From NCBI RefSeq assembly GCF_020164485.1, contig NZ_JAIQZA010000018.1, positions 1-64,000 of the forward strand: DNA of 64,000 nucleotides, in the 5' to 3' direction. The position numbers were made by a program, and so were the translations under genes. This stretch comes from Salegentibacter tibetensis (GTDB lineage Bacteria; Bacteroidota; Bacteroidia; Flavobacteriales; Flavobacteriaceae). This document shows positions 18,036 through 38,498 of the stretch, piece after piece. Numbering within the stretch: position 1 is the stretch's first letter; the number at the start of each line of letters is the position of its first letter. Under the pieces are notes generated by a model. The model was given only the letters and a program-made list of their open reading frames with translations. It made no database searches and had not been told where the DNA came from.

Positions 18036-18062
18036 AGATTCTGAAACAAGTTCAGAATGACG
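18036..18062 (-). repeat. REP-like palindromic unit, singlet
   Basis: This ~27-nt unit contains the stem ATTCTGAA-ACAAG-TTCAGAAT and ends in TGACG. Read on the minus strand it starts CGTCATTCTGAA, the same as the left half of the paired elements at 32320-32456 and 38370-38485. It lies between the convergent pepT and yajC genes. Confidence 0.65.
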
Positions 18063-28176: not shown

Positions 28177-28203
28177 AGATTCTGAAATAAATTCAGAATG
28201 ACG
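28177..28203 (-). repeat. REP-like palindromic unit, singlet
   Basis: The stem ATTCTGAA-ATAAA-TTCAGAAT is followed by TGACG. It differs from the 18036-18062 unit only in the loop. It lies between convergent genes, directly after the peroxiredoxin stop. Confidence 0.65.
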
Positions 28204-32103: not shown

Positions 32104-32319
32104 TTAAGTAGCTGTTTTAATAGATTTGTTGTTTTTAAAATTGGCCTTCACAGAACACCATATTGAAAATTGGGTACAATATTAGTTAGTTCTAATGTTA
32201 ATTTTGAATTTCTAATGTTGTGTTATTGTTAAGGAATTTTACATAGAACATACCCTTAGACTACTGAAATAAAGACTTCTACATAATCACATCTCGTAAA
32301 TTATATTGTGAATAAAGCA

Positions 32320-32456
32320 AAAGAGGCAGTCTGAAAAGGTTTATAAAATCGTCATTCTAAACTGGTTTCAGAATCTAAGATGTTGATAATCAAAATATGT
32401 TAGAAGCTGAACCAAGTTCAGCTTGACGAAACCAGATCTTTTCAGACAGCCTCTTT
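32320..32456 (-). repeat. nested inverted-pair repeat element A (REPIN-like)
   Basis: An outer stem of 19 positions with one mismatch (32320-32338 with 32438-32456) encloses CGTCA/TGACG (32350-32354 with 32424-32428) and two inner hairpins: ATTCTAAA...TTTCAGAAT (32354-32374) and AAGCTGAA-CCAAG-TTCAGCTT (32404-32424). The two inner hairpins are inverted copies of the singlet unit at 18036-18062. The element lies 25 nt downstream of the minus-strand stop at 32481 and is followed by T-rich sequence on that strand, so it could also act as a terminator. The remainder of 32104-32480 holds nothing else I recognise. Confidence 0.7.
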
Positions 32457-32480
32457 AAAAGTTTATGAATATTTTTTTTA

Positions 32481-34205
32481 CTAAAAATCAAATTTATAAG
32501 TTGCTCCGGCAAGAACCTGTAATCCCTGAACCCTAAAGTTTGTCCAACGTTGGTAATCATTGTTCAACAAGTTGCTTCCTTTTGCAAATATCGAAAGTCT
32601 TTCATTAAAGCGGTAGCCCAAATGAGCATTCACATCAAAAAAGCTGTCAAGTGTAACTGTACTCATTGTTGGTTCTCCTGCTGAAGCTACCCTTTCCTGA
32701 TCAAAACGCTCGCCAATATAGAATAAGTTAGCTCCTGTGTACCACTTCTCGTTAATTTGGTAATCGGCATTTAATGAGGCTTTAAAATCTGGAAGATTCC
32801 AGGCTTCTACTTCGTTGTCTGTGCTGTAATTAAAGTATTCAGCATTAATTCCAAGACGAAAGTTTCGGTTTACATCAACATTTACTTCTCCGGCAACCGA
32901 CAGGGTTTTTACATCATCATAAACTACTTCAAAGGAATTCCCGTAAGCATAATTTTCAGCCATTAAATCGTTCGCCTGCGCATTTCGCTTAAACAATGCT
33001 TTGTTGAATTGCGACTCATAGCCTGTTTTAAAATTATAAGAAATACTATTACTCAATTTTCCTTTAGCCCCAACGTACGCATTGTACTCATTGTCGGTTG
33101 GCCTAATTTCTAAGCTTGGAGATACATAAGGATTTTCCTGAATAAACCTGTAATAGGTGTTTTGTTGCAGTCCACCTTCCAGCCCGGCATAAGGCGTAAA
33201 ATAATCACCGCCCAACCTGTAACTTGCTGTTACTTTTGGATAGATATAAAAGTTGCCATCGCTGTTTTCAATATCCTGACTATAGAAAAAAGCCACACCA
33301 AGATTTAAGGTAAGGTCGTCCCTTAGAATTAATAGACTGGGATTAATGCCAAAGTTCATAAAGGTATATTCATAATTTTCCGTAGCCAGAAATTGCTCTC
33401 CCATTTGACCATTTACGATATCTGTATAGATATTTGTGGTAATTAATTCATCACCGATATTAACTTCAAAAGTACCACGGGTATCAAAATGATTTTCTGC
33501 AGTGGAATATGCATCACCCGTATGTCTGAATTTTGCCTTTGCGTTATCAAAAAACGAATCGTAAAGTTCTATTTCCCCACCTGCATAAGCTGAGAAATAA
33601 TTCTGAGAAGGGTTTATTGCATTTATTTCTGCATTACTGAAATTAGCATTTTGCGGTAATCCATACCAGTTAAAAAGTTGGTGCTGGGCCCCTACTTCGG
33701 TTTTCCATCCCAAATTACGTGTTTTAGAATTATAGCTTAAGTTTAATTCGGTATCATAAAATTTATCATCCAGTGCTACTCCTTCAATACCACCTTGAGA
33801 TGAATTATGATCTAAATAGATTCCAAAATTATCGCTTCGGCTTACTTCCAGGTTGCTGTAAAATTCGGCTAGAAGGTTACCGTAATTTCCAAAACCAAGA
33901 CTCGCATAATTATCGTAAACCTTTACCGGTCTCTCCCTTTCTACGGTAGTAGCACGTCCTTTCGCAGGAGTAAACGTAGATGCCACCGGAACAGAAAATA
34001 TACTGTATTGCACCGGCCTTTTTTCTGTCCTAACAGAATCTGACTGGCTGGGAGTTTGCTTTATCTTGTTAGCATCTTGCACCGTAGGGGTATATGGCTT
34101 TATAACCGTTACAGTTTCGCTATCTATAGGATCCTGAGCAAAAAGAACCCCACTAATTAAAAACGTACTTAAAAACAGGCTTCTTTTTATTGAAAACATT
34201 TGCAT
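32481..34205 (-). CDS. TonB-dependent-receptor-like outer-membrane barrel
   Basis: The 574-residue protein has a signal peptide (about residues 1-23, ending VLFAQ), a short region with ETVTVIKPYTPTVQDANKIKQ, and then a beta-barrel with many alternating strands that ends with GATYKFDF. The plug domain is absent or very short, which sets it apart from full TonB receptors (over 700 residues). It starts 34 nt after the stop of the TPR protein at 34240, and this pairing is widespread in Flavobacteriaceae. A cell-envelope role together with the TPR protein is inferred; the ligand is unknown. The second methionine (34199) is an alternative start. Confidence 0.75.
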   Translation of the reverse strand: MQMFSIKRSLFLSTFLISGVLFAQDPIDSETVTVIKPYTPTVQDANKIKQTPSQSDSVRTEKRPVQYSIFSVPVASTFTPAKGRATTVERERPVKVYDNYASLGFGNYGNLLAEFYSNLEVSRSDNFGIYLDHNSSQGGIEGVALDDKFYDTELNLSYNSKTRNLGWKTEVGAQHQLFNWYGLPQNANFSNAEINAINPSQNYFSAYAGGEIELYDSFFDNAKAKFRHTGDAYSTAENHFDTRGTFEVNIGDELITTNIYTDIVNGQMGEQFLATENYEYTFMNFGINPSLLILRDDLTLNLGVAFFYSQDIENSDGNFYIYPKVTASYRLGGDYFTPYAGLEGGLQQNTYYRFIQENPYVSPSLEIRPTDNEYNAYVGAKGKLSNSISYNFKTGYESQFNKALFKRNAQANDLMAENYAYGNSFEVVYDDVKTLSVAGEVNVDVNRNFRLGINAEYFNYSTDNEVEAWNLPDFKASLNADYQINEKWYTGANLFYIGERFDQERVASAGEPTMSTVTLDSFFDVNAHLGYRFNERLSIFAKGSNLLNNDYQRWTNFRVQGLQVLAGATYKFDF

Positions 34206-38359: not shown

Positions 38360-38369
38360 ATAAAAAAAG

Positions 38370-38485
38370 AAGAGTTTGTTTGAAAAGTTCTCAAGCTCGT
38401 CATTCTGAACTCGTTTCAGAATCTAAAATGTTAGAACCTGAAACAAGTTCAGGTTGACGGAAAAGGACAATCCAAACAAACTCTT
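38370..38485 (-). repeat. nested inverted-pair repeat element B (REPIN-like)
   Basis: The outer stem is 13 perfect base pairs, AAGAGTTTGTTTG (38370-38382) with CAAACAAACTCTT (38473-38485). Inside are CGTCA/TGACG (38398-38402 with 38455-38459) and two hairpins: ATTCTGAA...TTCAGAAT (38402-38422) and AACCTGAA-ACAAG-TTCAGGTT (38435-38455). It lies just downstream of the minus-strand typA stop, and the outer stem is followed by a T-run on that strand, so it may end typA transcripts. The outer stem differs completely in sequence from that of element A. Confidence 0.72.
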
Positions 38486-38498
38486 TAAAGTTGAGTGA

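Follow-up and report, generated by a model that had tools for sequence, protein, structure and literature searches.

A 137-bp repeat with IS1182-type ends and a CGTC-REP pair stands at a terminator site in Salegentibacter tibetensis

Introduction

CGTC-tagged REPs have been described as a class of repeats without a dedicated transposase, with Bacteroidetes among their hosts and with a few families in which REP dimers lie inside longer palindromes (Di Nocera et al. 2013, PMC3733652, available text). A second body of work concerns insertion sequences of the IS1182 family. According to the available portions of the respective reports, IS1272, a member of this family, takes the place of an inverted repeat when it inserts and creates no target duplication (PMC5678879); TnSha1, which derives from IS1272, removes portions of stem-loops, many of which are terminators, and can lie either way round at a single target (PMC4923244). 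IS1182-family MITEs are also known from the available descriptions of the ISMac2 derivatives (PMC3852290) and MITEPye1 (PMC11578231).

Here, we analyze a repeat of about 137 bp, element A, at positions 32320-32456 (minus strand) of a 64,000-nucleotide stretch of Salegentibacter tibetensis DNA, referred to as the window. Like the CGTC-tagged REPs in the available text of PMC3733652, its units combine an outward CGTC tag, an 8-bp stem, a 5-nt loop and a short tail, and they form head-to-head dimers of mixed stem types, 3' of genes and with no adjacent transposase. The unit, CTGAA-CTTGT-TTCAG, differs from that class description in its CTA tail, most tails of the class fitting CCA, and the outer palindrome is identified here as a transposon end. 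With IS1272 and TnSha1, as portrayed in the available text of PMC5678879 and PMC4923244, the element shares hairpin or terminator targets, loss of all or part of the hairpin, lack of duplication and both orientations, but those elements are autonomous or gene-carrying and come from staphylococci, whereas the present one is a non-coding 137-bp Bacteroidota element with REPs inside. The ISMac2 derivatives and MITEPye1 are likewise short and non-coding with IS1182-type ends (PMC3852290, PMC11578231, available text), and MITEPye1, as here, lies mainly between genes and forms a long stem-loop; it differs in its 4-bp direct repeats and its one to three chromosomal copies (PMC11578231). Neither a REP pair nor terminator replacement was found in the available portions of these two descriptions. 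REPIN/RAYT systems (PMC6006769, available text) resemble the repeat in their inverted pair of REPs and differ from it in that no cognate RAYT was found here and pairing between the two units is not conserved. A literature search that left subscription journals mostly outside its reach found, in the text available, no link of IS1182-type MITEs with REP pairs and no description of this repeat in Flavobacteriaceae.

Results

Element A has an outer stem enclosing two REP units. Its outer arms, AAAGAGGCAGTCTGAAAAG (32320-32338, plus strand) and AAAGAGGCTGTCTGAAAAG (32438-32456, as read on the minus strand), were recognized by IS-end comparison as IS1182-type terminal inverted repeats (consensus GAGGCTGTCTGAAAAG), and they pair at 18 of 19 positions across a separation of 99 nt. 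Between them lie a CGTC-tagged REP unit with a stem of the ATTC type (32350-32376, minus strand; 8-bp stem, 5-nt loop, CGTC outward) and, inverted with respect to it, a CGTC-tagged unit of the AAGC stem type (32402-32428, plus strand), separated by a conserved 25-nt spacer that has no strand (32377-32401). In canonical orientation, with the AAGC unit first, the element reads on the minus strand, co-directional with the upstream gene for a 574-aa protein (32481-34205, minus strand), whose terminator site it occupies and whose stop codon lies 24 nt before it. The protein has no Pfam match and is encoded in seven Salegentibacter genomes at 84-93% identity. Covariance model R1 matched element A, a member of alignment A1, at 32318-32459 (minus strand) with 148.1 bits, and the element folds better than shuffled sequences both as RNA (z -9.5) and as DNA (z -7.1), with 0 of 200 shuffles in each case folding as well. 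No ORF of at least 80 aa overlaps its 137 bp, which leaves no transposase gene inside, and an Rfam search with six loci of the repeat gave no match at E 1 or better.

Each unit consists of CGTC, an 8-base stem arm starting with A, a 5-nt loop, the complementary arm and CTA; the tag is CGTC or TGTC, and units of the listed type have an 8-bp stem and a 5-nt loop, within the 8-9 bp and 4-5 nt of the class. Stem position 1 is nearly always A and position 2 is A, T or C, with a CTA tail, compared with A and T at these positions and a CCA-like tail in the class. Genome-wide, the unit pattern occurred 261 times at up to three mismatches, against a single occurrence of a reversed-pattern control. At the same threshold, 36 units were found in a 454,627-base sample (contig C1, 160 kb of C122 and the window), arranged as 13 pairs and 10 singlets, where about 0.24 pairs would be expected at random; all 13 pairs were head-to-head, and in 28 of the 36 units the bases at the two free positions of the stem complement each other, for which chance is 1 in 16. 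A covariance model built from 23 aligned copies, element A included, returned at least 147 matches at no fewer than 114 distinct places in the genome, at least 42 of these places reaching 100 bits. The counts are lower bounds, as the scan scored 150 of 4,320 first-look candidates, and matches exceed places since both strands of this near-palindrome often score.

The alignment (A1) comprises 23 of 39 dimers, with L022, L185, L211 and L223 left out together with the 12 dimers of the genus that have a weak or absent outer stem. When the two unit hairpins and the outer stem were counted across these copies, 93.8% of cells were paired, and 37 two-sided changes were observed compared to 14.4 in shuffles (0 of 500 shuffles had as many). 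By contrast, of the pairs that would join one unit to the other, two cannot form in any of the 23 copies and a further two fail in 22; such pairing is unsupported, since no more than one of the 23 copies has bases at the variable stem positions that complement those of the other unit. The covariation favours two separate unit hairpins plus an outer stem over one long hairpin. We therefore rejected the single long REPIN hairpin on these pair counts, even though the minimum-energy RNA fold of element A alone does pair the two units. Outer arms also pair more strongly with their own partners than with those of other copies (mean -21.2 vs -16.8 kcal/mol; 0 of 20,000 permutations), as measured on 26 of 37 dimers, those with interrupted arms being left out. 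ORFs were called on either side of 36 REP dimers, and 34 of these dimers lie between convergent or co-directional ORFs. None of 14 dimers from other genera and one of the 13 in our own sample were homodimers (combined p 0.05), which is only suggestive of a heterodimer rule for REP pairs.

These results bear out much of the original prediction, which had proposed two inverted 27-nt units enclosed by an outer stem of 19 positions with a single mismatch, as found here with a 25-nt spacer, and a compensatory swap relative to the second copy in the window, element B, which is a true two-sided change (AAGCTGAA/TTCAGCTT vs AACCTGAA/TTCAGGTT). Its expectations of paired copies in excess of random placement, of covariation and of a dispersed, mobile-looking family agree with the 13 pairs of the sample, the two-sided changes and the spread over the genome.

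Element B (38367-38489, minus strand; covariance-model match 111.3 bits) holds REP units at 38398-38424 and 38433-38459 with an 8-nt spacer. Its outer stem, GAGTTTGTTTG/CAAACAAACTC, has diverged, with three positions altered on both sides relative to the IS1182 end, and it too lies at a gene end. Elsewhere in the window, single REP units with no detected partner stand at 18036-18062 and 28177-28203. Some REP arms, at L013, L024, L042, L056, L069 and L072, carry an extra small hairpin inside the hairpin (e.g., CCCGAAGCTTCGGGA or CCCGCCTGAACGGACGGGC), a hairpin-in-hairpin insertion. At the L016 site, all five sister genomes have, at one conserved position between two co-directional genes, a REP dimer that lacks an outer stem (G004 has one unit), with no clear terminator; this dimer is perhaps an operon-internal RNA hairpin.

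Other insertions were seen alongside the family. A non-coding element of about 300-420 bp sits inside palindromes at about 36 places or more in the S. tibetensis genome (40 of 203 candidates scored), where it inserts after xxGA, mostly in the REP loop (CTGA^ACTTG; e.g., L015:1160-1526 and L070-L099), and it has matches in 13 of 14 genomes of the genus, some of them weak and partial. Over its first 42 nt it shares 83% identity with the left end of an IS110-family element in G002 (C63 start, L144:1-205), which encodes a 68-aa N-terminus whose NF033542 match (E 1.2e-7) is below the cut-off because it is partial. From sequence comparison, the non-coding element appears to be related to an RNA-guided transposon that would target REP hairpins, and to be non-autonomous. 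At L207 (G009:C21:258116-258556), the stretch directly after an intrinsic terminator resembles, and may be, the 5' end of a group II intron.

The outer stem of the family matches the ends of IS1182 copies in the sister species G002 and G004 (GAGGCTGTCTGAAAAG). Left ends in these two genomes are identical to the element consensus and right ends differ at one or two positions, while the IS1182 ends in G001 and G011 show one difference from the outer stem. The G011 copy spans 1,717 bp and encodes an intact 510-aa transposase (NF033551, 467 bits vs a cut-off of 270). TTT follows all 18 right ends listed for G001, G002 and G004, and at least AA precedes 12 of the 13 left ends inspected among 20 listed for the same genomes; copies of the element obey this junction rule more loosely (left 19/26, right 18/26). 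Beyond the ends, element and IS1182 share little. The S. tibetensis genome has seven IS1182 profile matches, those on C130 and C119 being fragments; the ones inspected (C100, C132 and C1) have other ends, and no intact IS1182 with the element's ends was found among them. Across seven sister genomes, co-occurrence of IS1182 and the element fails, as the counts do not track each other: G012 has 0 IS1182 matches and 72 model matches, and G001 has 17 IS1182 matches and no model match at 1e-15. The elements may outlive their IS. In addition, short terminators at L041, L046, L048 and L068 in the S. tibetensis genome, and the terminator at the L018 site, resemble an IS1182-type arm and may be remnants of IS ends.

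We then compared orthologous sites. For 12 other elements, these were examined in five sister genomes (G012 yielded all but one of them), and for the window site in seven named species; sites in G006, G011 and other genomes were left outside the comparison. At the window site, the relatives carry an intrinsic terminator of unrelated sequence, and its hairpin is absent here. Over 10 of the 13 loci (L016, L022 and L026 were left out, their outer stem being absent or poor), 28 of the 33 relatives' sites without an outer-stemmed element or IS had an ordinary intrinsic terminator, and 19 of these 28 had no REP unit in the stretch read. The terminators of L005/G004, L006/G002 and L008/G012, which the script had overlooked or picked wrongly, were judged by eye, the weak script pick at L009/G004 was not counted, and the tally excludes G009 and G010 at L004, where a degenerate element lies beside the terminator; the five sites without a clear terminator are all empty relatives at L009. 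At L002 and L027, G004 has, in place of the element, an IS whose first bases are GAGGCTGTCTGAAAAG, the element's outer arm, and whose gene belongs to IS1182. In joined-flank alignments of L002, L027 and the window locus, the terminator hairpin is absent where the IS or the element stands, most clearly in G004 at L027, where exactly the 23-nt AAATCCCGCGGATAGCGGGATTT of the sister sequence is missing, and no target-site duplication was seen by eye at these three loci.

The element occurs in two orientations at four of the six loci where at least two species have it (L005, L008, L011 and L018), and in the same orientation at L004 and L006. At the four former loci (S. tibetensis, G002, G004, G009 and G010), it is flipped between species and the flanks are unchanged. 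Some sites do not show a simple swap. At L004, G009 and G010 have a terminator and, about 40 nt on, a degenerate element with both arms, with no swap there; at L018, an arm-like terminator (AAAGCCTGTCTAAA...TTTAGACAGGCTTT) is followed by a REP dimer in G004 (one detectable unit), G010 and G012; and at L006, S. tibetensis retains a second terminator downstream. Terminator replacement is thus clear at five loci (the window locus, L002, L005, L008 and L027), and L004 and L018 show it less clearly. With the hairpin lost, no duplication at three loci and both orientations at four of six, the element is therefore best read as an IS1182-type MITE with REP cargo.

REP dimers also exist outside such ends. 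We inspected 15 regions from nine genomes of nine other genera, among the matches listed, and 14 of them (eight genera) had a scorable head-to-head dimer. All 14 lacked an outer stem, and their own-partner flanks were no better paired than cross combinations (mean -7.7 vs -9.8 kcal/mol), on which ground we dropped IS1182 as a general mobilizer of CGTC REPs. Since these 14 dimers have no outer stem, IS1182 would be a secondary vehicle; together with the 12 of 39 dimers of the genus that lack a strong one, they indicate that the REP pair exists and spreads without IS1182.

The same stemless dimers would fit a different origin, in which machinery belonging to the REPs inserted dimers into or beside pre-existing host terminators and the outer stem is simply the host's terminator. 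Short terminators without REPs (GGCTGTCTGAAAAGGCAGCC and similar) at L041, L046, L048 and L068 in the S. tibetensis genome, outer stems that differ by locus, and the terminator and REP dimer standing side by side in relatives at L004 and L018 all agree with it. We nevertheless regard this origin as unlikely: the terminators at most element-free sites have unrelated stems (e.g., CCCGCTTC, CCCGTAAG, TCCCGC) that do not flank the element, the outer stem is the same as IS1182 ends, and two of these very sites are occupied by IS1182 with a boundary of the same kind.

It is very improbable that these are old elements, no longer mobile, which persist because they act as structured 3' UTRs or terminators and owe their covariation to selection on RNA. 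Locus-specific compensation of the outer stem, copies kept at some orthologous sites (e.g., L008 in four further genomes) and persistence of copies in G012, which has no IS1182 match, speak for such retention, but presence, absence and orientation vary among species at most loci compared, and a common sequence at no fewer than 114 dispersed places requires past mobility.

As to RAYT transposases, which the original prediction had invoked, the S. tibetensis genome has nine Y1_Tnp matches, several of them fragmentary, and no REP unit (up to five mismatches) was found in the flanks scanned, at most 1.5 kb on either side, of any of the nine, although an identical scan recovered the units in L001, L002 and L012. 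Among 120 genomes of the family, 58 have units, 48 have Y1 and 25 have both, with Y1 in 25/58 genomes with units vs 23/62 without (Fisher p 0.58). Y1 was present in 14 of the 25 genomes with at least 10 units (absent from 11) vs 34/95 of the rest (p 0.11), and strong Y1 matches alone gave 9/25 vs 17/95, a weak trend (p 0.06). One of two proteins tested is IS200-like and the other RAYT-like (189 aa; NF047646 53 bits, under the cut-off of 80). Mobilization as a REPIN by a RAYT (Y1) transposase would suit the inverted REP pairs with their conserved spacer, this RAYT-like protein and the weak trend, but it is the least credible reading, given the unit-free flanks, the lack of a clear association over the 120 genomes, the unconserved unit-to-unit pairing and an outer stem that equals an IS1182 end. 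Thus, the inverted REP pair, its compensatory changes and its dispersed family hold, whereas the link to RAYT and the single nested REPIN hairpin are unsupported.

Discussion

The element is real and mobile-looking; it brings two known kinds together in a new way and does not form a kind of its own. We consider it probable that element A, with a CGTC-REP heterodimer as its cargo, is a non-autonomous MITE of the IS1182 type, swapped in for the terminator of the 574-aa gene and probably terminating transcription in its stead. An IS1182-type transposase acting in trans would place the element by inverted-repeat-replacing transposition, in which the target hairpin would be lost, no target duplication would form and either orientation could result. 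The upstream gene would then be terminated by the paired ends and the adjoining T-run, so that insertion would cost the host little. Where the outer stem lies, the T-run beside it, its compensation locus by locus and the disappearance of the former terminator suggest that the stem now terminates transcription.

More tentatively, a REP pair captured between IS1182 ends may have become a self-spreading terminator, which would seek intrinsic terminators, delete their hairpin and supply its own, such that dozens of Salegentibacter genes would now end in a transposon-borne, REP-containing terminator. If so, stem-loop-replacing transposases would be one missing mobilizer of CGTC REPs, and replacement of one copy by another would explain the flipped orientations at orthologous sites.

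The mover of CGTC REPs, and the reason for the occurrence of some REP pairs in longer palindromes, are open questions in the literature, to which these data offer one concrete, testable answer for a genus. They would also extend to Bacteroidota a hairpin-replacing transposition that we found described, in the available texts, only for staphylococcal IS1272 and its derivatives, an extension that rests on before-and-after sites in several species. Finally, they suggest a route of terminator turnover, in which a terminator is replaced by a mobile hairpin that may itself be a terminator.
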